Shown piece after piece: positions 48,719 through 60,569 of a stretch of DNA of 61,717 nucleotides. The notes under the pieces were generated by a model that had not been told where the DNA came from, searched no databases, and saw nothing but the letters and a program-made list of their open reading frames with translations. Origin of the DNA: an uncultured Ruminococcus sp. GTDB taxonomy: Bacteria > Bacillota > Clostridia > Oscillospirales > Acutalibacteraceae. The stretch is taken from positions 1 to 61,717 of the forward strand of contig CACWOX010000014.1 of assembly GCA_902762615.1 (NCBI GenBank). Reading direction: 5' to 3'. Each line of letters opens with the position of its first letter. The stretch's first letter is position 1. A program made the position numbers and the translations under genes.

Positions 48719-51442
48719 ATGAAATGCAAGAAGATCTTAGCGCTGCTGGCGGCGGCAGTCATGTTCGGCTCGATGGGTACCGGCGCATACGCCGCCACAA
48801 AGAGCGATTCCGCTTCGCCCTCGCTGAAAGCCGAGCTTTCCGGCTCACAGCTTTCCAACTTCACGGTCGTGGCTGTCGACAGTGCCAAAAGCCACAACAT
48901 CGGCGCTCACAGCTATCAGTGGAACGGATACAGAGAGAATGCATGGAACTGGGCTGAAACAGCCAAATCATACCTTGTCGCCAATTCCGACGGCACATTC
49001 ACCCGATTGGAAAACATCGGCGAAAGCATCGTCATTGAAAATTACTCGTCAGCCCTCAGTCTGAAATCCACAAAGAAGCTGAATCTGGAGCTGCCGATAT
49101 TCGGCGGATTCCTTTCCGGCGCGAAGTACAACTTCATTGTCTGCGGGCAGCAGAACGATGACGAAAGCGACGCCACCGAGGTGGTAAGGGTCATCAAATA
49201 CGACAAGTCATGGAACCGCCTTGGCAGCAAATCCTATTACGGCATAAACACTTATGTTCCGTTTGAGGCGGGTACCGTGAGCATGACCGAGGACGCCGAC
49301 CGGCTCTACATTCACACCAGCCACAAGATGTATAAATCGAGCGACGGCAACAATCATCAGGCCAATCTCACCTTCTTTATCGACAAGGAAAACATGAAGT
49401 CGCTGTATGAAAATTACATCGTGTGGAATATATCATCCGGCTATGTCTCGCACTCCTTCAATCAGGTCATCAGGACAGACGGGGAGTATGTATACACCGC
49501 CGACCACGGCGACGCACATCCCAGAGCGGTCGTGCTTGTCAAGAGAAATACCGGCGGCAGCGCTGTCGCTTCCGGTAATATTCTTGAAATCAAAGGCAGC
49601 ACCGGAGCCAATCTGACCAAGGTCACTCTCGGCGACATGCAGCTTTCCGGCAGCAGGGTAATTACCGTCGGCGCTTCGGTCAAGCAGGACGACAGCTATG
49701 CCGACCGCTCCCAGAAGAATATCTTTGTCTCGGCAGCCTCCAAGAGCGATCTTTCGTCGCAATCCTTCATATGGCTGACAAATTACGACGAGAATGCCGG
49801 CGTTACGGTCTGCAATCCCTATCTTGTCAAGATGAGCGACAGCAAATTCTTTGCGGTATGGGAAGAGCTTTCATCCTCCGGCAACACGCTCAAATATGCC
49901 AAGCTCGACGCAAACGGCAAGCTCACAGGCAGCGTACTGTCACTTACTGAGGACAGCGACGAGGGTCTTTCCGACTGTGCGCCCGCGGTATCCAACGGCA
50001 AGCTCGTCTGGTATTCCACAGGCTCCCGTTCCGACAGCTGGTGGAACAAGACCGACGCCGCACCGACATTCTACATGCTGTCCCCCGAGATTGGCGCACC
50101 CGTCATCACAGCGCAGCCGCAGAACGTCAGTGTAATGTCCGGCGACACGGCTTCCTTCACGGTAAAGGCAAGCGGCACCGGTCTGAAATACCAGTGGTAT
50201 TACAAGAAAAAGGGCGCATCGGCGTGGAGCCTCTGGAAGGGACACACCACCGCGACCACATCCGGAACAGCCAACGACACATGGGACGGCATGCAGGTCT
50301 ACTGCGCCGTATCCAATTCCGCAGGCATTACCGTTGACTCCAATCCGGCAACCGTCACTGTAAACGCGGAGCTTAAAATAACCTCTCAGCCGCAGAACGT
50401 CACCGTCAATTCGGGCGACTCGGTAACCTTTACCGTGAAGGCAAGCGGCGTCGGACTCAAATACCAATGGTATTACAAAAAGAAAGGCGTCAGCACATGG
50501 AGCAAATGGGGTACGCGAACCACCGCCTCTACCACCGCGACCTCCAATGACAGCTGGGACGGCATGCAGGTTTACTGCAATGTCACCGATTCCAAGGGAA
50601 CAAGCATCCATTCCAACACGGCAACCGTCACCATTTCAGCCACTCTTAAAATTACACAACAGCCCCAGAGCCAGAGCAAAACGCTGGGCGAATCGCTCAC
50701 CATATCGGTCAAGGCATCGGGCTTAGGACTGAAATATCAGTGGTATTTCAAGAAAAAGGGGCAGACGGAATGGTCAGTCTGGAACGGACGGACGCACGCC
50801 TCCGAGACCTGCACGCCCAACGATACATGGAACGGCATTCAGCTCTACTGCCTTGTCAAGGACAGCGCAGGCAATTCGGTTAAATCATCCGCCGCGACCA
50901 TCACCGTTACCCAGGAATTCAAAATCATCACCCAGCCCTCCGATGTTGTGGTAAAGTCGGGCGATACCGCCAAATTCACCGTCAAAGCAAGCGGCACCGG
51001 TCTGAAATACCAGTGGTATTACAAAAAATCCGGCTGCTCGACAAGCTGGACCGTCTGGAACGGTCACACCACGGCAACCACTACAGCCACGGCCAACACT
51101 TCATGGGACGGCATGCAGGTGTATTGCAAAATCACAGACGCCACCGGAAGCACCCTCACTTCCAAAGCCGCCCTTATTACCATTATGAATGAGAAAACTC
51201 TCACCGTCAGCGCAGGCTCAACCCTCAGAATTAAAAACACGGCAAGCGGCGACACCTTCACTTACCAGTGGTACTACAAAAAGAAGGGCGCTGCCGACTG
51301 GAGCATATGGAAGAGTCACACCGATCCCGAACTCAGCGTCACAGCCAACGACACATGGGACGGTATGATGATTCACTGCGCTATAGTGAATTCAAGCGGC
51401 AGAGACATCAACAGCACCTACTACAAGATCGCTCTCGCCTAA
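48719..51442 (+). CDS. Secreted protein with five Ig-like repeats
   Basis: A 907-aa protein with a clear signal peptide (MKCKKILALLAAAVMFG, cleavage near the AYAA site). Residues about 30-455 form a region of beta-propeller-like or sialidase-like repeats (for example KMYKSSDGNNHQANLTFFID, YTADHGDAHPRAVVLVKR); I do not recognise a catalytic motif. Residues about 458-907 are five Ig-like domains of about 90 residues, each with xITxQPQxVxVxSGD, GLKYQWYYKKKG, WDGMQVYC and a final TATVT strand; the last is the most diverged. No sortase motif or anchor is seen at the C-terminus. It faces, across one terminator, the SGNH lipoprotein that carries the same Ig module. Confidence 0.85.
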   Translation: MKCKKILALLAAAVMFGSMGTGAYAATKSDSASPSLKAELSGSQLSNFTVVAVDSAKSHNIGAHSYQWNGYRENAWNWAETAKSYLVANSDGTFTRLENIGESIVIENYSSALSLKSTKKLNLELPIFGGFLSGAKYNFIVCGQQNDDESDATEVVRVIKYDKSWNRLGSKSYYGINTYVPFEAGTVSMTEDADRLYIHTSHKMYKSSDGNNHQANLTFFIDKENMKSLYENYIVWNISSGYVSHSFNQVIRTDGEYVYTADHGDAHPRAVVLVKRNTGGSAVASGNILEIKGSTGANLTKVTLGDMQLSGSRVITVGASVKQDDSYADRSQKNIFVSAASKSDLSSQSFIWLTNYDENAGVTVCNPYLVKMSDSKFFAVWEELSSSGNTLKYAKLDANGKLTGSVLSLTEDSDEGLSDCAPAVSNGKLVWYSTGSRSDSWWNKTDAAPTFYMLSPEIGAPVITAQPQNVSVMSGDTASFTVKASGTGLKYQWYYKKKGASAWSLWKGHTTATTSGTANDTWDGMQVYCAVSNSAGITVDSNPATVTVNAELKITSQPQNVTVNSGDSVTFTVKASGVGLKYQWYYKKKGVSTWSKWGTRTTASTTATSNDSWDGMQVYCNVTDSKGTSIHSNTATVTISATLKITQQPQSQSKTLGESLTISVKASGLGLKYQWYFKKKGQTEWSVWNGRTHASETCTPNDTWNGIQLYCLVKDSAGNSVKSSAATITVTQEFKIITQPSDVVVKSGDTAKFTVKASGTGLKYQWYYKKSGCSTSWTVWNGHTTATTTATANTSWDGMQVYCKITDATGSTLTSKAALITIMNEKTLTVSAGSTLRIKNTASGDTFTYQWYYKKKGAADWSIWKSHTDPELSVTANDTWDGMMIHCAIVNSSGRDINSTYYKIALA

Positions 51443-51473: not shown

Positions 51474-51549
51474 AACTCCCGAAAGGAGAGCCGTCAGGCG
51501 TTGTGTTCGCCATAAATTACGGCACCTCCCTTCGGGAGTTGTCTTTTTT
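51474..51549. terminator. Long bidirectional terminator between convergent genes
   Basis: Arms of about 21 nt pair almost fully (AACTCCCGAA, GGAG, GCCGT with ACGGC, CCTCC, TTCGGGAGTT; 51474-51494 with 51519-51540), then GTCTTTTTTC on the plus strand. It lies between two genes that share an Ig-like module. Confidence 0.85.
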
Positions 51550-52700
51550 CAATTGTAAACCGCCTGCTGAACAAGCGGAAGGTAGTACTCGAGATAGCCG
51601 CGTGTAAGCGGGTGAATGCCGTCGGCGTCGACATAATCGGTGTTGTTGTTCCTTGCGTTGATCCAGCCGGGATCGGTCAGCCATGTATAATTTACGTTGC
51701 TGCGGTATTCGTCATACAGCGTGTCAAGCGGACTGTCGTTGAACACGTCGATAATACCTATGTCATAGACGTTGCAGCAGGCAACGATAGCGTCGTGCAG
51801 CTCCTGCTGGGTATATCCGGCATTATTCGGGGTATTTACAAGATAAACGCCTTCCTTATATACACGGTGGGTAATCAGAAAGAACTTTCGGGCGTCCGGG
51901 TATTTGCTTTTCATCGTGACAAAAAGCCTCTGCAAACTGCCCATAACGGTGTAATTATCCAATTCGTCAACGCTTTCCGCAGGGAATGCAGGTATCTCCC
52001 CCATCGGCGCATCCAGACAGTAATCGTTGTACCCTCCGTCGGCAATGATTATATCGGGAATAAAATTATCCGTCATTTCCAGCTGCTCGGGTATGGTTGA
52101 AATATCGTTCCTTGCGGTGGACAGGGTAGCGCCGGATACGCCCTGATTCAGATAGCACATATCAAGGTCGCCCACAAAGCCCCTTTCGCCGTTGCGATAT
52201 CCCCGGCAAATGCTGTCCCCCACGGCAAGCACCCTTGTGCGCGTGTCTATCGTTATCGTTGCCGTGTCCGAGATCATCGCATTGCCGAATTCATCGCCTA
52301 CAACACAGTACAGCTGAATGCCGTTCCACGAGTCATTCGGCATAACGGTCTCGCTGTAATGCGTTCTGCCTATCCACTCCGAGAACTTGCTCTGCCCCTT
52401 TTTTTTGAAGTACCACTGGTATTTCAGCCCGATTCCCGTCGCTCTTACGGTGACGGTGAGACTGCTGCCCTTAGGCACTGCGCGGCTTTTGGGCTGCTTG
52501 ACAATCGACAGCTCGGTTTCTTGGGTAAGTTTCTCTTCTTCCTCGCCGACCGGCTGATAGCCGTCCAGATAAACGGCGGAATCGTCGGCAGTCCCATTGT
52601 CAGCGTCTTTTGAAGAACACCCGGATATAAATACAGCGAGCAGCATCAATACTGCCGCAATGCTTACTTCAAGCAATTGTTTACTTTTCATTGGTTTCAT
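51549..52700 (-). CDS. SGNH-hydrolase lipoprotein with Ig-like domain
   Basis: A 383-aa protein with a lipoprotein signal (AVFISGC lipobox near residue 28), so it should be anchored outside the membrane. Residues about 65-150 are an Ig-like domain (IVKQPKSRAVPKGSS, GLKYQWYFKKKGQSKF, WNGIQLYC) nearly identical in layout to the third repeat of the facing secreted protein. Residues 155-383 are an SGNH/GDSL hydrolase with block I GDSICRG, the GGYND block, and a DGIHP catalytic Asp-His pair. Likely an extracellular esterase or O-acetyl hydrolase acting on a glycan. It is 12 bp downstream of the LCP gene. Two ATGs (52700, 52691) are possible starts. Confidence 0.88.
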   Translation of the reverse strand: MKPMKSKQLLEVSIAAVLMLLAVFISGCSSKDADNGTADDSAVYLDGYQPVGEEEEKLTQETELSIVKQPKSRAVPKGSSLTVTVRATGIGLKYQWYFKKKGQSKFSEWIGRTHYSETVMPNDSWNGIQLYCVVGDEFGNAMISDTATITIDTRTRVLAVGDSICRGYRNGERGFVGDLDMCYLNQGVSGATLSTARNDISTIPEQLEMTDNFIPDIIIADGGYNDYCLDAPMGEIPAFPAESVDELDNYTVMGSLQRLFVTMKSKYPDARKFFLITHRVYKEGVYLVNTPNNAGYTQQELHDAIVACCNVYDIGIIDVFNDSPLDTLYDEYRSNVNYTWLTDPGWINARNNNTDYVDADGIHPLTRGYLEYYLPLVQQAVYN

Positions 52701-52712
52701 TAGTCCTTGCTG

Positions 52713-54005
52713 TCAGCTCTTTTTCTTATTTTTCTCATATTTTGACCTGTCGTATTCGGTCTTTTGTTCATCTGTCTTCTGTTGTTGGTCAGCAAGCTCC
52801 TGCGCCGCTTCATCGTCGCCATAGATGAATTGATTCAGATAACCTGCGTTTTGGTTCAGGTTAACCTCAACATACCATGCATTGCCGGTTTTTTTGTCCT
52901 TCCATGTGCCGTCTATGGGTATACGCAGACCCATCGTGTCGTAATTCAGGCTGCTCAGACCTTCCCAAAGCAGAGAATTCATCTCGTCGCGCGTCATGTT
53001 GGTCGTGACACATGGCGCAACAACGGATAAGATACGCTGTGCTTTTAAGGGCGAAAGCGACCGACATTTCTTCATGATCTCCCGCAGCACCTTTCGCTGA
53101 CGTGCCGTGCGTGCGATGTCTGTGCCTACCTTGCGTATGCGGCAGTAGGAAAGCGCCTGCTGTCCGTTGAAATTGTACCGTCCCGCCTCGGTGATCCTGT
53201 TTTTTTTGCCTCCCTGCACGTACTTGTTGAATTGTTCAAGCTCCATCTCTTCAATCTCTACCTCAACTCCGCCGAGATCGTCCACTACGGCGGCAAAAGC
53301 AGCGTAATCCACGCATACGTACCGATCTATCCTCATGCCGAAATTCAGGTAGATTGTTTCCAGCAGCAGATCTCCGCCGCCGAAGGTGAATGCCGCATTG
53401 AGCTTGTTTTTGCCATGCCCCGGTATTTTGAGATACATGTCACGCATAAGAGAGGTCATTTTGATTTTCCGGTGGGCGTGATCTATGCTCAGAATGATCA
53501 TGCTGTCGGTGCGGGAAATACCGTTTTCATCAATATCGCAGCCGCACAGCAGTATGTTTTTGGTTTCATCGGTGTGCGATACAATAAAATCGGCGTCGGA
53601 TTGACTGACCAGCGCATTGATATCGTCAAAATTGAGATTGCTTTTGACGTAATTGACAGAATCGACAATGCTCATCATCCTGTAAGCCTCGTATATACCA
53701 AAGGCAGCGACAGCAGCAAAAATGACTGCCACAGCCACGGCAATGACCTTCCTTGCGGAATGGGGCTTTTCTGCGTTGTACTGAGCGTCCGATCTTTTTG
53801 AGACTCTTATCGGGGAATTACTGTCAACATTCGGTTTTTCGGGCTGTACAGGACGATTGGTTATCAATTCGGCAAGCTCACGCACTTCCGGCAAACTCTC
53901 GAACTTTACATTATAAGAAGCAGCGGAAAGGCACTGACGCGCGTTTGCTCCGCTGCCGCCCACTACCACAGCTTCATCTCCGAGCTTCTGACTCTGCCCG
54001 TCCAT
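52713..54005 (-). CDS. LytR-CpsA-Psr (LCP) family protein
   Basis: LCP enzymes transfer polyprenyl-linked glycans onto peptidoglycan or proteins. The 430-aa protein has a cytoplasmic N-terminus of about 85 residues, one membrane helix (about 87-107) and an extracytoplasmic LCP domain. The domain shows SRTDSMIILSIDHAHRKIKMTSLMRDMYLKIPGHGKNKLNAAF (quoted in part), DYAAFAAVVDDLGGVEVEI, LSYCRIRKVGTDIARTARQ and a polar Lys/Gln/Asp tail. The catalytic Arg/Asp residues of LCP proteins are in these segments. It is first of a two-gene operon with the SGNH lipoprotein. Candidate glycan substrates in the window include the Pel-type polymer, but this is speculative. Confidence 0.92.
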   Translation of the reverse strand: MDGQSQKLGDEAVVVGGSGANARQCLSAASYNVKFESLPEVRELAELITNRPVQPEKPNVDSNSPIRVSKRSDAQYNAEKPHSARKVIAVAVAVIFAAVAAFGIYEAYRMMSIVDSVNYVKSNLNFDDINALVSQSDADFIVSHTDETKNILLCGCDIDENGISRTDSMIILSIDHAHRKIKMTSLMRDMYLKIPGHGKNKLNAAFTFGGGDLLLETIYLNFGMRIDRYVCVDYAAFAAVVDDLGGVEVEIEEMELEQFNKYVQGGKKNRITEAGRYNFNGQQALSYCRIRKVGTDIARTARQRKVLREIMKKCRSLSPLKAQRILSVVAPCVTTNMTRDEMNSLLWEGLSSLNYDTMGLRIPIDGTWKDKKTGNAWYVEVNLNQNAGYLNQFIYGDDEAAQELADQQQKTDEQKTEYDRSKYEKNKKKS

Positions 54006-54065
54006 AGTATCCCCCCTAAAACCATCTCACATCTTCCGCATAACCACAGACCTTTTTCAGAATAA

Positions 54066-54094
54066 ATTTTACATCACGTAAAACGCCCTGTCAA
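54066..54094 (-). promoter_or_regulatory. Promoter of the LCP-SGNH operon
   Basis: Minus-strand TTGACA (54089-54094), 17-bp spacer, TAAAAT (54066-54071), divergent from the aspS promoter. Confidence 0.75.
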
Positions 54095-54197
54095 TCGCTG
54101 CACAAAAAATTAATGATATCTAAACAGGCAATTCACCAAATGTTAAACTAATTGTAAATTAATTAACGCTATCCCTCATAAAAAATCCCGAAATTAC

Positions 54198-54227
54198 TTG
54201 ACGTACAGTATATCATTGTGCTATAAT
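54198..54227 (+). promoter_or_regulatory. Promoter of the Asn-leader/aspS operon
   Basis: TTGACG (54198-54203), 18-bp spacer, TATAAT (54222-54227). The predicted transcription start is near 54234, which leaves a leader of about 215 nt before aspS, too short for a full T-box. The stretch 54095-54197 between the two divergent promoters holds nothing else I can identify. Confidence 0.8.
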
Positions 54228-54262
54228 CAAGGCTAAAGTATATTTTAGTGAGGTGAAGTTTT

Positions 54263-54379
54263 TTGTCTCTTGCAGTATTTTTATCAATGTCGGGCACATG
54301 TATGAGTGCCGCGTACGCAACAAACAACAATAATAATATGACGGGAGGCGCTGAGATTTCATCTTGCTTTTATGCATAA
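54263..54379 (+). CDS. Asn-rich leader peptide (attenuation peptide) upstream of aspS
   Basis: A 38-codon frame starting at TTG (54263), preceded by GAGGTG with a 7-nt spacing, a strong ribosome site. It ends with TAA at 54377-54379. The peptide begins MSLAVFLSMSGTC, continues SAAYAT and then has five consecutive Asn codons (AACAACAATAATAAT, 54323-54337), then MTGGAEISSCFYA. The Asn run stops 3 nt before the start of the antiterminator arm (54341). The five-Asn cluster in a leader directly before an operon for Asn-tRNA synthesis indicates ribosome stalling as the sensing step. Two internal ATGs (54287, 54302) in the same frame also include the Asn run. Known analogues are trpL, hisL and pheL in other bacteria. 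Confidence 0.78.
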   Translation: MSLAVFLSMSGTCMSAAYATNNNNNMTGGAEISSCFYA

Positions 54380-54421
54380 GAAAATCAGTGTCCTCCCGTT
54401 ATGCTTTGCGGGAGGATTTTT
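54341..54421 (+). promoter_or_regulatory. Transcription attenuator: mutually exclusive antiterminator and terminator
   Basis: Arm A (54341-54354, ACGGGAGGCGCTGA) pairs with arm B (54385-54399, TCAGTGTCCTCCCGT): 8 bp, a one-base bulge, then 6 bp, extendable inside by 4 bp. Arm B also pairs with arm C (54409-54416, CGGGAGGA) to make the terminator at 54391-54421. A:B and B:C cannot coexist. A ribosome stalled on the first Asn codons (from 54323) leaves A free, so A:B forms and transcription continues. A ribosome that reaches the stop codon at 54377 sits between A and B and covers the start of B, favouring B:C and termination. A small hairpin GGCAC/GTGCC (54293-54310) upstream could pause polymerase. 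Confidence 0.75.
54391..54421 (+). terminator. Intrinsic terminator of the aspS leader
   Basis: Perfect 8-bp GC-rich stem TCCTCCCG/CGGGAGGA (54391-54398 with 54409-54416), a 10-nt loop, and then TTTTT. It ends 28 nt before the aspS ATG and its 5' arm is shared with the antiterminator. Confidence 0.9.
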
Positions 54422-54449
54422 GATTTATTGAGAGAAGGAGAATTACACT

Positions 54450-55772
54450 ATGGAATTTACAAATCCCAGCAACGTTAAGAAGCCGCTCAGCGTCAAGGAC
54501 GTTGCCGCGGCAAACGGCGGAGAAATCACCATTCACGGCGGAATCCACATTATCCGCGATATGGGCGAGTTTTCTTTCGTGGTACTTCGTCTGCCTGACG
54601 GAATATGCCAGTGTACCGTTGAGAAATCCGCCGACTTTGGCGGAGAAAGCCTTGTGGAGGAAGCCTGCATTGAGGTGACAGGCACCGTCCGTGAGGAAAA
54701 CCGCGCTCCCGGCGGCTACGAAGTGGTTGTCAAATCGGGCAAAGTGCTTTCCAAGCCTGCCGCAGCCATGCCCATCAGCATCAACAAGCACAAGATCACC
54801 GCCGCTCTCGAAAATGAAATTCCGCTGCGCAACATCACCCTGCGCAACGGCAATTACCGCACACGCTTCCGCATTCAGGGCGAGATCGTCAAGGGCTTCC
54901 GCGATTATCTGGACAGCCAGGGATTTGTGGAGATTCACACTCCGAAAATCAACGCAAGAGCTGCCGAAGGCGGCGCCAACGTATTCAAAATGGAGTACTT
55001 CGGCAAGAAAGCGGTCCTCGCGCAAAGTCCTCAGTTCTACAAGCAGGCTATGGTCGGCGTATTTGAGAGAGTCTATGAGGTCGCACCCGTATTCCGCGCC
55101 GAGAAGCACAACACTGCCCGTCATCTCAACGAGTACATCAGCATGGACTTTGAGATGGGCTACATCGACAGCTTTTACGACATCATGGCAATCGAGACAG
55201 GCATGCTCAAGCTGGTCATGGACAGAATCCGCGATAACTACGCACGCGAGATTTTCCTGATGAAGCTGAACATTCCGGTAATCGACACCATTCCCCATGT
55301 CCGTTTCAAAGAGGCAAAGGAGCTTATCCAATCAGAATACGGCAGGGAAATCAAGGATCCCTACGACCTTGATCCCGACGAGGAACAGCTCATCGGCAAA
55401 TACTTCAAGGAAAAGTACAATTCCGACTTTGTTTTCGTCACACATTATCCCTCCAAGAAGCGTCCCTTCTACGCAATGGACGACCCGGAGGATCCCAACT
55501 ACACACTGAGCTTCGATCTTCTCTTCCGCGGACTGGAAGTCACCACCGGCGGTCAGAGGATTCACGACTACGACGAGCAGGTCGCCAAGATCATCAAAAA
55601 GAAGATGAACCCCGAGGACTTTGCCACCTACCTCAACATTCACAAGCACGGCATGCCGCCCCACGGCGGTCTCGGCATAGGCTTGGAGCGACTGACCATG
55701 CGCCTCTTCAACGACGACAACATCCGCTATTCCTCCATGTTCCCGAGAGATATGCTGCGATTGGTGCCGTAA
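54450..55772 (+). CDS. aspS: Archaeal-type aspartyl-tRNA synthetase, probably non-discriminating (AspRS2)
   Basis: Class II synthetase of 440 aa, the length of the archaeal/eukaryal-type AspRS and much shorter than the roughly 590-aa bacterial type. It has an N-terminal OB-fold anticodon domain (about 20-105), motif 2 in FRAEKHNTARHLNEYISMDFEM (quoted in part), a Q-S-P-Q-FYKQ segment (LAQSPQFYKQ) and motif 3 GGLGIGLERLTM. In bacteria this form usually charges tRNA(Asn) with Asp for amidation by GatCAB, and gatC, gatA and gatB lie downstream in the same direction. The anticodon-domain region reads HGGIHIIRD, without the Trp typical of discriminating archaeal enzymes, consistent with a non-discriminating role. 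GAAGGAG precedes the ATG. Expression is set by the Asn leader attenuator. Confidence 0.9.
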   Translation: MEFTNPSNVKKPLSVKDVAAANGGEITIHGGIHIIRDMGEFSFVVLRLPDGICQCTVEKSADFGGESLVEEACIEVTGTVREENRAPGGYEVVVKSGKVLSKPAAAMPISINKHKITAALENEIPLRNITLRNGNYRTRFRIQGEIVKGFRDYLDSQGFVEIHTPKINARAAEGGANVFKMEYFGKKAVLAQSPQFYKQAMVGVFERVYEVAPVFRAEKHNTARHLNEYISMDFEMGYIDSFYDIMAIETGMLKLVMDRIRDNYAREIFLMKLNIPVIDTIPHVRFKEAKELIQSEYGREIKDPYDLDPDEEQLIGKYFKEKYNSDFVFVTHYPSKKRPFYAMDDPEDPNYTLSFDLLFRGLEVTTGGQRIHDYDEQVAKIIKKKMNPEDFATYLNIHKHGMPPHGGLGIGLERLTMRLFNDDNIRYSSMFPRDMLRLVP

Positions 55773-55773
55773 T

Positions 55774-56469
55774 ATGAAACAGGATTTTAAAAAGAATTTT
55801 CCAAAGATACTTTATGTATTCGTGCTGCTGGGATTTATCGTGCCGATCATCTTTATTGTGCTGATGATGATTTTCGGCACAACTCCCCAGAACGAAGCCG
55901 GCTATCATTCTCAGGCGGATTACGCCCTGATGCTGGTGCAGTGCCTGCTTGGCCTTGTGGTGGTACATATTCCGTCATTCCTCGAAAAAAGGCTGAAATT
56001 CGAGCTGCCGACGGTGCTGTATGTGCTGTACCTGATATTCCTCTACTGCGCGATCACTCTCGGTGAGGTGCGTTCCTTCTACTACACCATTCCGCACTGG
56101 GATGTGTTCCTGCACGCCTTCAGCAGCGTGATGACCGGACTGTTCGGCTATATGCTGATCACCATCATCAACCGCAACGACAAATTGGTGGTGCAGCTTT
56201 CGCCCCTGTTCGTGGCGATGTTCGCCTTCTGCTTCTCGGTGATGATCGGCGCGGTCTGGGAGGTATATGAATTCACCTTCGACGGTCTGTTAGGGCTGAA
56301 TATGCAGAAATTCGCCCTTGCCGACGGGACCGAGCTGACCGGACATCTGGCACTTGCCGATACCATGAAGGACATTATTGTGGATATCCTCGGCGCTATG
56401 GTTGCTTCCGCCGTGGGCTACTTCTCGCTTAAATTCGACAAGCACTGGCTCAAAATCACGCTCACATGA
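55774..56469 (+). CDS. YjdF/DUF2238-like membrane protein
   Basis: Starts one base after the aspS stop, so it is co-translated or coupled. The 231-aa protein has about six hydrophobic helices and conserved polar residues inside them: HWDVFLHAFSSVMTGLFGY, GAVWEVYEFTFDG, and ADTMKDIIVDILGAM. The W-E and D...D patterns resemble DUF2238/YjdF proteins of unknown function. It has no obvious link to tRNA charging. A stop-adjacent repeat follows 7 nt after its stop codon. Confidence 0.65.
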   Translation: MKQDFKKNFPKILYVFVLLGFIVPIIFIVLMMIFGTTPQNEAGYHSQADYALMLVQCLLGLVVVHIPSFLEKRLKFELPTVLYVLYLIFLYCAITLGEVRSFYYTIPHWDVFLHAFSSVMTGLFGYMLITIINRNDKLVVQLSPLFVAMFAFCFSVMIGAVWEVYEFTFDGLLGLNMQKFALADGTELTGHLALADTMKDIIVDILGAMVASAVGYFSLKFDKHWLKITLT

Positions 56470-56476
56470 AATAGGA

Positions 56477-56554
56477 AGCGCTCGCATTCGCTCGCTAATT
56501 TAAGACTGAAAACTTAAAACTTAAAATGAATAATGAATGAGCGCCTGCGGCGCT
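56477..56554. repeat. Stop-adjacent repeat plus hairpin module (YjdF-like/GyrI-like spacer)
   Basis: AGCGCTCGCATTCGCTCGCT (56477-56496) follows the YjdF-like stop by 7 nt, almost identical to the copy at the glgP stop. It is followed by AAAACTTAAAACTTAAAATG repeats and the 15-nt hairpin AGCGCCTGCGGCGCT (56540-56554). Confidence 0.6.
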
Positions 56555-56580
56555 GGAATAAAACAAGTAAGAGGTATGCT

Positions 56581-57213
56581 ATGGCTTTTGATTATAAAAA
56601 AGAATACAAAGAATTTTATATGCCGCCAAAGACACCAACCATTATTACTGTACCATCTATGAATTATATCGCAGTGCGAGGTCAGGGTAATCCTAATGAA
56701 GAGGACGGCGCATATAAACAGGCGATAGGGCTGCTTTACGGGATCGCGTTCACAATAAAGATGAGTAAAAAAGGAAACCGTCAGATAGAGGGCTATTTTG
56801 ATTACGTTGTGCCGCCGTTGGAAGGCTTTTGGTGGCAGGACGGCGTGCAGGGCATTGATTATTCACACAAGGAGAATTTCAAATGGATTTCTCTGATTCG
56901 TCTTCCCGATTTTGTTACAAAAGCCGATTATGAATGGGCAGTATCGGAAGCTGCCGCTAAGAAAAAAACGGACTTTTCCAAAGTTGAGTTTCTGACTTAC
57001 GATGAGGGGTTGTGTGTGCAATGTATGCACATAGGCAGTTACGATAACGAACCTGCCACGGTACAGCTTATGCACGAGTTTATCGAGCGGGAAGGATATG
57101 CTCTTGCTATTTCCGACAAGAGATTTCATCACGAAATTTATTTATCTGACGCAAGGCGTATTGCTCCCGAAAAATTGAAAACCGTCATCAGACATCCCAT
57201 CGCCGCACTGTAA
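56581..57213 (+). CDS. GyrI-like small-molecule-binding domain protein
   Basis: The start is the ATG at 56581 (MAFDYKKEYKEFY), with GAGG six nt upstream; the frame is open 48 nt further but that part lies in the repeat block. The 210-aa protein has the GyrI-like pattern: YMPPKTPTIITVPSMNYIAVRGQGNPNEEDGAY (in part), YFDYVVPPLEGFWW, and IGSYDNEPATVQLMHEFIEREGY. Such domains bind small hydrophobic molecules, often in regulators or as stand-alone proteins. No DNA-binding domain is present. It sits between aspS and gatC with no clear functional tie. Confidence 0.8.
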   Translation: MAFDYKKEYKEFYMPPKTPTIITVPSMNYIAVRGQGNPNEEDGAYKQAIGLLYGIAFTIKMSKKGNRQIEGYFDYVVPPLEGFWWQDGVQGIDYSHKENFKWISLIRLPDFVTKADYEWAVSEAAAKKKTDFSKVEFLTYDEGLCVQCMHIGSYDNEPATVQLMHEFIEREGYALAISDKRFHHEIYLSDARRIAPEKLKTVIRHPIAAL

Positions 57214-57292
57214 ATTCCCATTTACCATAGCTTCATAATCATAAAATCCATTGAAAATGCCACAATACTACCCGAAAGGAGACAATATAAAA

Positions 57293-57580
57293 ATGGTCAT
57301 TACCGACGAACTGGTAACATATCTCGAGGCGCTGGGCAGGATCAGACTGCCCGAGGAAAGCCGCGCGAAGGCGCAGAGCGACTTGCAGGAGATATTGCAG
57401 TATATCGACACGCTGTCCGAACTGGACACCGAGGGCATCGAGCCGATGAGCCACGCCCTGCCGCTCACTAACGTCATGCGTGAGGACGAAGTGCAGCCCT
57501 CCATCCCCACCGAGGACGTGCTGCGTAACGCTCCCGCTCAGAAGGACAATTACTTCCTCGTACCGCGTTCGTTTGAATAA
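57293..57580 (+). CDS. gatC: Aspartyl/glutamyl-tRNA amidotransferase subunit C
   Basis: Small subunit that stabilises GatA-GatB. The start is the ATG at 57293 (MVITDELVTYLEAL), after AAAGGAG; an in-frame ATG at 57251 has no ribosome site. The 95-aa protein has YLEALGRIRLPEESRAKAQSDLQEILQYIDTLSELDTEGIEPMSH (in part) and the PLTNVMREDEV hinge typical of GatC, with an ending that wraps GatA. It starts the gatC-gatA-gatB block. Confidence 0.93.
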   Translation: MVITDELVTYLEALGRIRLPEESRAKAQSDLQEILQYIDTLSELDTEGIEPMSHALPLTNVMREDEVQPSIPTEDVLRNAPAQKDNYFLVPRSFE

Positions 57581-57637
57581 TTACGGCTGTTTGCTTAATG
57601 ATCAGACGACTACACAGAATTGAAAGGAAGATTAACG

Positions 57638-59107
57638 ATGAATCTTGAAACAATGACCGCGCTTGAGCTCGGCGCGGCAATCAAAAATGGCGAAATCAGC
57701 GCCGTGGAAGCGGCAAAATTCTCGCTCGGTCAGATTGATAAATACGATAAGAAATTCTCCTGCTTCGTCACCGTGCAGGACGACGTTTTACAGAGAGCAG
57801 AAGAGGTGCAGAAGAAGATTTCCTCCGGCGAATACACATCCCCCCTTGCCGGCGTACCGATGGGCATTAAGGACAACATGTGCCAGAAGGGCATACAGAC
57901 CTCCTGCGGCTCCCGCATGCTGAGCAATTTCAAACCCACCTACAGCGCGACCGCCGTGGAGGAAATCATGAAGGCAGGCGCAGTGCCGCTGGGCAAGCTC
58001 AATATGGACGAATTCGCCATGGGCTCCACCTCCGAGACCAGCTTCTTCGGCGCGACAAAGAACCCGTGGAACGTCGCCTGCGTCCCCGGCGGTTCCTCGG
58101 GAGGTTCGGCAGCGGCTGTCGCTGCGGGCGAATGCTTCTACGCGCTCGGTTCCGACACAGGCGGAAGTATCCGCCAGCCTGCCTCCTTCTGCGGCGTGAC
58201 AGGCATCAAGCCGACCTACGGCTCGGTTTCCCGCTTCGGACTGGTCGCCTACGCAAGCTCCCTTGATCAGATCGGTCCCATCGCTCACAATGCAGCCGAC
58301 TGCACCGCCGTCCTCGCGGAAATCATGAAGCAGGACAAGAAGGACAACACCAGCGTTGCCACCAAGGGCGCAGACCTTGCGGCCGTGCTCAATGCCGACG
58401 TCAAGGGCACGAAAATCGGCATTCCCACCGACTTCTTCGGAGAAGGTCTTGACAAGGAAGTCGCCGCTGCCATCGAAGCCGCTGCAAAGCAGCTCGAAAG
58501 CATGGGCGCGACTGTCGAAAAATTTGACATGCCGATTGTCAAATACGCCATTCCGGCATACTACATCATCGCTTCGGCAGAAGCAAGCAGCAACCTCAGC
58601 CGCTACGACGGCATCAAATACGGCTACCGCGCCGACGATTTTGAAGACCTGCTCGACCTCTACACCAAGAGCCGCAGCGAGGGCTTCGGCATGGAGGTCA
58701 AGCGCAGAATCATGCTGGGCTGCTTCGTGCTTTCCTCCGGATATTACGACGCCTACTACCGCAAGGCATTGCAGGCAAAGGCTCTGATCAAAGAAGCATT
58801 CGACAAGGCGTTTGAGAAATACGACCTCATTTTGGGTCCGGTTGCACCTACCACTGCTTTGAAGATAGGTGAAAATCTCTCCGACCCGCTGAAAATGTAC
58901 CTCGGAGACATCTACACCGTTATGATGAATCTCGCCGGACTGCCTGCCGCCTCTGTTCCCTGCGGCTTTGACTCCAAGGGAATGCCGGTAGGTATGCACC
59001 TCATCGGCAATTACTTCGACGAAACCAAGATTCTCGGCGCGGCACACGCTTACCAGCAGGTAACCGACTGGCACAAGCGCAAGCCGACCGAGCTTGTCAA
59101 TATGTGA
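57638..59107 (+). CDS. gatA: Aspartyl/glutamyl-tRNA amidotransferase subunit A
   Basis: Glutaminase subunit that makes ammonia from glutamine for transamidation. The start is the ATG at 57638, after AAAGGAAG. The 489-aa protein has the amidase signature: GVPMGIKDNM with the catalytic Lys near residue 76, then GGSSGGSAAAVAAGE and GSDTGGSIRQPASFCGVTGIKPTYG, giving the cis-Ser and nucleophile Ser of the Ser-cisSer-Lys triad. Length is normal. It is 57 bp after gatC and overlaps nothing. Confidence 0.97.
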   Translation: MNLETMTALELGAAIKNGEISAVEAAKFSLGQIDKYDKKFSCFVTVQDDVLQRAEEVQKKISSGEYTSPLAGVPMGIKDNMCQKGIQTSCGSRMLSNFKPTYSATAVEEIMKAGAVPLGKLNMDEFAMGSTSETSFFGATKNPWNVACVPGGSSGGSAAAVAAGECFYALGSDTGGSIRQPASFCGVTGIKPTYGSVSRFGLVAYASSLDQIGPIAHNAADCTAVLAEIMKQDKKDNTSVATKGADLAAVLNADVKGTKIGIPTDFFGEGLDKEVAAAIEAAAKQLESMGATVEKFDMPIVKYAIPAYYIIASAEASSNLSRYDGIKYGYRADDFEDLLDLYTKSRSEGFGMEVKRRIMLGCFVLSSGYYDAYYRKALQAKALIKEAFDKAFEKYDLILGPVAPTTALKIGENLSDPLKMYLGDIYTVMMNLAGLPAASVPCGFDSKGMPVGMHLIGNYFDETKILGAAHAYQQVTDWHKRKPTELVNM

Positions 59108-59126
59108 GAAAGGAGCAGAAGGAACA

Positions 59127-60569
59127 ATGGCTAAGACAACATCATGGGAAATCGTAATGGGTCTGGAGGTACACGTAGAGCTTGCCACCAAGACCAAGAT
59201 ATTCTGCTCCTGCACCACCGAATTCGGCGGCGCACCCAACACGCACTGCTGCCCGATCTGCACCGGCATGCCCGGCGTGCTCCCCTCGCTCAACAAGGCA
59301 GTTGTGGAATACGCCACCAAGGCAGGACTCGCTCTGAACTGCGAAATCACCCGCTACAACAAATTCGACCGCAAGAACTACTTCTATCCCGACCTTCCCA
59401 AAGCATATCAGATCAGCCAGCTCTACCTGCCGATCTGCCGCAACGGCGGTATTGAAATCGAGGCGGAAAACGGCGGCAAAAAGGTCATCGGCATTCACGA
59501 GATACACATGGAAGAGGACGCCGGCAAGCTGGTGCACGATCCGTGGACGGATTCCACCATGGTCGACTACAACCGCTGCGGCGTTCCGCTCATCGAAATC
59601 GTCAGCGAACCTGACTTCCGCTCGGCAAATGAAGTCATCCGCTACCTCGAAAAGCTCAAGGCAATCCTGCAATTCATCGGCGTATCCGACTGCAAGATGC
59701 AGGAAGGCTCCCTGCGTGCCGACATCAACCTTTCCGTGCGCCCTGTCGGTTCGGAAAAATTCGGCACACGTACCGAGATGAAGAACATGAACTCCTTCAA
59801 GGCCATCGCACGCGCCATCAACGGCGAATCCAAGCGTCAGATCGAGGTGCTGGAGGACGGCGGCGAGGTGAAGCAGGAGACACGCCGCTGGGACGACAAC
59901 AAGGACGCTTCCTTTGCCATGCGTTCCAAGGAGGACGCGCAGGATTACAAGTACTTCCCTGAGCCTGACCTTATCCCCATTGAAATCAGCGACGAAACCA
60001 TCGAGCAGACAAGGAATTCTCTGCCCGAGCTGCCCGAAGCCAAGCGTCAGCGCTACGTCAGTGAGCTGGGTCTTTCCGAGTACGACGCTTCGCAGCTCAC
60101 CACCTCCAAATATCTGGTGGCTCTCTTTGAGCAGAATCTGGAAGCGGGCTATCCGGCAAAGGAGCTTGCCAACTGGATTATGGGCGAAGTCATGCGGTTG
60201 CTCAGCGACAGCGGCAGAGAACCGGAGGACATGACCTTTGACTACAGCTACCTCGGCTTACTCATCGGCATGGTACAAAAGAACGAAATCACACGAAACA
60301 CCGCAAAGAAGGTATTCAAGGCAGTGTTTGAAGAGGGCTGCGATCCGGTCAGATACGTCGAGGAGCACAACCTCAAGACCGTCACCGACACAGGAGCCGT
60401 CAAGGCAGCCATTCAGGAGGTCGTCGCGGCCAATCAGAAGTCCGTGGACGAATACAAGTCCGGCAAGGAGAAGGCGCTGCAATATCTCATCGGTCAGTCC
60501 ATGCGTGCGCTCCGAGGCAAAGCCGACCCGCAGACCGTCACAGCGATTCTGAAGGAAATTCTCGGGTAA
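59127..60569 (+). CDS. gatB: Aspartyl/glutamyl-tRNA amidotransferase subunit B
   Basis: Kinase/amidotransferase subunit that activates Asp-tRNA(Asn) or Glu-tRNA(Gln) with ATP and amidates it. The start is the ATG at 59127 (MAKTTSWEIVMGLEVH), after AAAGGAG; an ATG at 59094 lies inside gatA. The 480-aa protein has GLEVHVELATKTKIFCSC, GAPNTHCCPICTGMPGVLP (zinc-binding Cys residues), YFYPDLPKAYQISQ, EEDAGKL and a C-terminal YqeY-like tail domain (VKAAIQEVVAANQKSVDEYKSGKEKALQYLIGQSM in part). With GatC and GatA it forms the transamidase that completes the AspRS route. Confidence 0.97.
   Translation: MAKTTSWEIVMGLEVHVELATKTKIFCSCTTEFGGAPNTHCCPICTGMPGVLPSLNKAVVEYATKAGLALNCEITRYNKFDRKNYFYPDLPKAYQISQLYLPICRNGGIEIEAENGGKKVIGIHEIHMEEDAGKLVHDPWTDSTMVDYNRCGVPLIEIVSEPDFRSANEVIRYLEKLKAILQFIGVSDCKMQEGSLRADINLSVRPVGSEKFGTRTEMKNMNSFKAIARAINGESKRQIEVLEDGGEVKQETRRWDDNKDASFAMRSKEDAQDYKYFPEPDLIPIEISDETIEQTRNSLPELPEAKRQRYVSELGLSEYDASQLTTSKYLVALFEQNLEAGYPAKELANWIMGEVMRLLSDSGREPEDMTFDYSYLGLLIGMVQKNEITRNTAKKVFKAVFEEGCDPVRYVEEHNLKTVTDTGAVKAAIQEVVAANQKSVDEYKSGKEKALQYLIGQSMRALRGKADPQTVTAILKEILG

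Follow-up and report, generated by a model that had tools for sequence, protein, structure and literature searches.

A predicted asparagine leader-peptide switch upstream of the AspRS-GatCAB genes in a lineage of uncultured Clostridia

Leader-peptide, or ribosome-mediated, attenuation is a classical mechanism of transcriptional control. In trp/his-type attenuators, a short translated leader carries a run of codons for the product amino acid, and an antiterminator and a terminator share an arm in front of an operon that raises the corresponding aminoacyl-tRNA. In Bacillota, His leader peptides were reported before hisS* and hisZ in bacilli, where hisS has a T-box, and this was described as switching of sensing systems between paralogues (PMC2965389). 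A Leu-rich attenuator peptide is listed for S. aureus (PMC5794164). In Rhodobacterales, the uORFC-8-2 leader of cysS is a predicted ribosome-mediated attenuator with Cys codons for an aminoacyl-tRNA synthetase, and it was also found by comparison. Both the His and the Cys systems serve direct charging of tRNA (PMC2965389, PMC8632094). The pathway in which an extra AspRS and GatCAB produce Asn-tRNA(Asn) is known to be under T-box control in C. acetobutylicum (PMC4206432). T-boxes were not found before the amidotransferase genes considered in PMC2494555, but one of the three aspS genes of C. acetobutylicum was under a T-box.

Here, we analyzed a stretch of 61,717 nucleotides (the window) from an uncultured Ruminococcus sp. 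(GCA_902762615.1, contig CACWOX010000014.1). In this window, the genes of the same kind of pathway are preceded by a small open reading frame with a run of asparagine codons and by two alternative RNA hairpins. The signal is apparently also tRNA(Asn), but it would be read by a translating ribosome as usable Asn-tRNA and not by a T-box that reads the tRNA directly. The regulatory amino acid is Asn instead of His, Cys or the amino acids of the trp/his-type leaders, and the operon makes its aminoacyl-tRNA by transamidation. In addition, arm A lies inside the leader ORF, and no upstream arm protecting it was seen. The element and its operon consist of the following parts.

54198..54227, plus strand: sigma-70-type promoter TTGACG-18-TATAAT with TG before the second hexamer
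54250..54255, plus strand: ribosome-binding site GAGGTG, 7 nt before the TTG start
54263..54379, plus strand: 38-codon leader peptide ORF, MSLAVFLSMSGTCMSAAYATNNNNNMTGGAEISSCFYA, stop TAA (54377-54379)
54323..54337, plus strand: run of five Asn codons, AAC AAC AAT AAT AAT (regulatory codons)
54338..54354, plus strand: arm A, the 5' arm of the antiterminator, inside the leader ORF
54385..54402, plus strand: arm B, the 3' arm of the antiterminator, of which 54390-54399 is also the 5' arm of the terminator
54408..54417, plus strand: arm C, the 3' arm of the terminator
54417..54421, plus strand: U run of the terminator
54450..55772, plus strand: aspartate--tRNA(Asn) ligase (archaeal/non-discriminating-type AspRS)
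55774..56469, plus strand: 231-aa ORF, apparently a membrane protein (by eye), without a family match
56533..57213, plus strand: GyrI-like small-molecule-binding protein
57251..57580, plus strand: gatC (the true start is probably near 57293, by comparison with the genome G001 of the genus)
57620..59107, plus strand: gatA
59094..60569, plus strand: gatB

Everything noted in the preliminary description of this element is present, although the arms are slightly longer than the spans given there (A 54341-54354, B 54385-54399 and C 54409-54416). The promoter matches 11 of 12 consensus positions, and 4 promoter-like sites were found in 53900-54800 against 1.8 expected. Arms A and B form 17 pairs with one bulge. 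The segment 54335-54402 folds at -33.2 kcal/mol (z -8.2), and 0 of 200 shuffles were as stable. Arms B and C form 10 pairs followed by the U run, and 54380-54425 has a z of -6.4 (0 of 200). The two hairpins share arm B and exclude each other. The Asn run is the only one of four or more codons in the window on either strand, and (AAY)5 occurred in 0 of 60 dinucleotide shuffles. The AGAAGGAG before aspS lies beyond the terminator, so the natural point of control is transcription rather than masking of that ribosome site.

The first gene of the operon was assigned by profile searches to the tRNA(Asn)-type AspRS (NF003483, 546.6 bits against a cut-off of 353; TIGR00458 aspS_nondisc, 392 against 368.4). 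gatC, gatA and gatB matched TIGR00135 (90.9 bits), TIGR00132 (611.9 bits) and TIGR00133 (568.9 bits), respectively. Two extra ORFs lie between aspS and gatC, which corrects the preliminary description of an AspRS-GatCAB operon. The 231-aa ORF was found by tblastn in only 1 of 7 named genus loci. The GyrI-like protein (PF06445, 67.1 bits) was not found in any of the 24 loci searched, so the spacer content varies.

The genome of the window (G000) also contains a second AspRS-like frame of 602 aa, taken as the ordinary bacterial AspRS by homology, and an AsnRS (asnS; contig C10, locus L151:6030-7424, minus strand; 546.8 bits for TIGR00457). Transamidation is therefore not its only route to Asn-tRNA. 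Further AsnRS-like matches lie in the genus genomes G004, G005, G006, G007 and G010. By these matches, G000 is the only one of the 8 genomes with the archaeal-type AspRS that also has an AsnRS-like match, and no T-box signature was found in its locus. GlnRS was found in 17 of 18 genomes of the genus, 15 of them over the cut-off, so GatCAB is probably needed for Asn only. AsnA was found in 0 of 18 genomes and AsnB over the cut-off in 16 of 18. One tRNA-Asn gene was found in the 30 tRNA loci scanned, of 42 tRNA matches. It has the anticodon GUU and a U1-A72 pair, which is noted in genomes with an extra AspRS and GatCAB (PMC4206432).

To examine conservation, a protein search was carried out in 18 genomes of the genus, and the AspRS orthologue (91-100% identical) was found in 8. 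The leader is present upstream in 7 of these 8. In contrast, in G009 the promoter leads straight to the aspS ribosome site, as if the leader had been deleted, although this was seen in one assembly only. A covariance model (R1) built from the seven leaders matched at E below 1e-19 in 9 of 18 genomes. These are the seven, which match by construction, and G001 and G017, which lack this AspRS and carry the leader directly before gatC. All other matches in the genus scored 32.1 bits or less, several of them on the reverse strand of the same place. gatCAB was seen behind AspRS on the same contig in 6 of the 7, whereas the contig of G003 ends first. In G011 and G013, a long insert beginning with GATAAGAGATA-type repeats lies between the terminator and aspS.

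TTGACG-18-TATAAT stands before all nine leaders and in G009. All nine leaders keep a start codon (TTG, GTG or ATG) after a ribosome site; the spacing is 7 nt in 7 of 9, and 12 and 9 nt in G001 and G017. The Asn frame is open in 9 of 9. One other frame is also stop-free up to the Asn run in 4 of 9, so openness alone is weak evidence of coding, and the Asn codons carry the argument. The Asn runs are 3, 4, 5, 5, 5, 5, 5 and 6 codons long, and in one genome the run is NNNHN. Of the 43 run codons, 42 are Asn (11 AAC and 31 AAT). The stretch from the start to the last Asn ranges from 18 to 25 codons, and the identity of its variable part to the window is only 38-70%, against 70-96% for the A-to-B core. 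The N-terminal half is free to change while the Asn codons and the arms stay.

Compensatory change, one of the tests suggested in the preliminary description, is weak, and this test was not passed. In eight distinct rows, 92.6% of A:B cells pair, against 34-60% when the partner is slid by 1-3 columns. However, 11 of 17 pairs never vary, and the two doubly changed pairs are not above shuffles, since two or more arise in 284 of 500 (cells paired, 124 of 500). With seven rows the score was borderline (15 of 500). The predicted hairpins rest on conservation, energy and the shared arm, and not on covariation.

The position of the ribosome was modeled with an assumed leading edge 12 nt beyond the first base of the A-site codon. 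With the first Asn codon in the A site, the exposed RNA folds as A:B in 9 of 9 leaders (-29.8 to -38.0 kcal/mol). In G008, with three Asn codons, the first few bases of arm A would already be covered. With the stop codon in the A site, the terminator folds in 7 of 9 leaders (-10.7 to -19.8 kcal/mol). In G001 and G017, the stop lies 6 nt nearer the terminator, and a parked ribosome would cover part of B (-1.5 kcal/mol). In these two genomes, termination would need the ribosome to be released or still within arm A, which counts against a uniform design.

Relatives outside the genus appear to control this kind of gene with a different RNA sensor. Of 80 AspRS loci from public genomes, 7 match genus members. 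Among the other 73, 47 carry the T-box signature GGGTGG[CTA]ACC[AG]CG within 700 nt upstream. In 44 of these, the pattern AAC(2-9)GGAG[CT] marks an AAC (Asn) specifier candidate, and the other 3 have AAC at the same place by eye. The 26 loci without the signature include 3 with under 300 nt of upstream DNA. gatC, gatA and gatB follow aspS in 6 of 8 of these relatives searched for synteny; they were not detected in the other 2, both without a T-box. That AAC is the specifier is inferred from its position and not from a model. These findings support the signal proposed in the preliminary description.

Inside the genus, all 10 genomes without the archaeal-type AspRS have another AspRS behind a T-box with the motif GGGAAC[AG]C, and the copy of G001 scores as bacterial-type aspS. 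In G007, this T-box leader carries an extra stretch of roughly 100 nt ahead of its T-box sequence compared with its relatives. A second gatCAB follows in 4 of the 5 neighbourhoods read and was not detected in the fifth. A divergent gatC (31-34% identical) was found in 8 of the 10 genomes, but not in G004 and G005. The gatC orthologue of the window exists in 18 of 18 genomes. In 8 T-box genomes, no leader was seen when its upstream region was read by eye, and a TTGACG/TATACT-like promoter is visible by eye in 7 of the 8, well upstream in G007. Asn-tRNA genes are thus under an apparent Asn-type T-box in 10 of 18 genomes and under an Asn leader in 9. Two genomes have both, before different gatCAB copies. 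G001, for example, carries one gatCAB behind the Asn leader without AspRS and one behind a T-box with a bacterial-type AspRS.

A gatA tree of the 18 genomes and six outside rows needs three changes of the leader label (3-4 over bootstraps), which fits one gain and two losses (the eight-genome group and G009), although 6 of 21 inner branches are weak. The leader probably arose once in the genus and was lost at least twice. Beyond the genus, R1 gave only weak matches, with stricter search filters that lose weak matches. Of 398 family genomes, 14 had E <= 0.1, and 5 of these were genus members with strong hits. The 9 others (at most 30.9 bits) look like ordinary inverted repeats. Of 394 order genomes, only G000 and one other (31.7 bits, locus not read) had E <= 0.001. 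No strong match was found in the other 393 family genomes, some of them leaderless genus members, or in the other 393 order genomes. Both sets are samples and overlap, and as far as searched the element is confined to the genus.

Together, these data strongly suggest, in the absence of transcript or expression data, that the element is a ribosome-mediated transcription attenuator that reads the supply of Asn-tRNA(Asn), as proposed in the preliminary description. When Asn-tRNA(Asn) is plentiful, the ribosome is inferred to run through arm A to the stop codon while RNA polymerase makes B and C, so that B:C forms and transcription stops near 54421. When it is scarce, the ribosome would stall on the first Asn codons with its leading edge near 54335, just short of arm A at 54338. 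A:B would then form, the terminator could not, and aspS-gatCAB would be transcribed. The leader would sense the end product of AspRS plus GatCAB as the ribosome sees it. No upstream arm pairing with A was seen in the folds made, so the default with no translation would be read-through. In this genus, the leader stands where relatives have an apparent Asn-type T-box.

Other explanations are considered unlikely. A decayed or constitutive remnant, in which the hairpins no longer regulate because AsnRS now supplies Asn-tRNA in the species of the window, would fit the AsnRS in G000, the absent leader in G009 and the shifted stop in G001 and G017. However, the copy of the window has five Asn codons, a good promoter and intact arms, and G008 and G015 keep the A-to-B core at 94-96% while the N-terminal half is at 53-70%. 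The leader could also be an arrest peptide whose conserved end (TGG-[AT]-x-[IV]-S-[SP]-C) stalls the ribosome in response to a small molecule or drug, with the Asn run being incidental. Drug-responsive leaders that work by transcription attenuation are reported in Bacillota, and the part after the Asn run is conserved in all nine leaders, more than the first half. This part lies in arm A and the predicted apical stem, so RNA pairing explains much of its conservation. Moreover, the downstream genes are Asn-tRNA genes and not resistance genes, the Asn run is kept with nearly only synonymous change, and many relatives use apparent Asn-type T-boxes.

It is similarly improbable that AspRS, GatCAB or another RNA-binding protein binds the leader RNA and chooses between the hairpins, with translation being secondary. 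The A:B hairpin is strongly conserved, as is the apical motif TTTCRYCYTGC (about 54357-54367 in the window), which is present in all nine leaders. The ends of this motif pair in the predicted apical stem but its middle does not, and a pausing role is possible. Binding by a protein does not explain the ribosome-binding site, start codon and Asn run kept in 9 of 9 leaders. An unrecognised T-box or other known riboswitch is the least likely explanation, although homologous operons elsewhere have apparent Asn-type T-boxes. No Rfam match at gathering level was found in the window or in 15 other loci, but this says little about T-boxes, because the cut-off of RF00230 (93 bits) also misses the T-box of L014, another locus (35.3 bits). 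A permissive search that finds the T-box of L014 gave no T-box up to E 5 in 54000-54470, with only two eukaryotic-RNA chance matches.

This appears to be the first leader-peptide attenuator read by Asn codons, and the first for a transamidation operon, within the literature that could be searched, which left out most subscription papers, so an earlier report cannot be excluded. Passage searches found no mention of asparagine in PMC2965389, PMC1262725 or PMC8632094. It can be tentatively hypothesized that a sensor exchange within one genus has moved control of tRNA-dependent asparagine synthesis from tRNA charging to decoding. A T-box is expected to test the free 3' end of tRNA and should be blind to whether the attached residue is Asp or Asn. 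When GatCAB is limiting, Asp-tRNA(Asn) builds up; a T-box should read it as charged and a leader as missing, as far as the ribosome refuses it. The operon would then respond specifically to failure of the amidation step.

Elsewhere in the window, 48719-51442 encodes a 907-aa protein with repeated KASG-GLKYQWYYKKKG-like domains. The neighbouring 383-aa protein (51549-52700) has one such domain joined to what looks by eye like an SGNH hydrolase.
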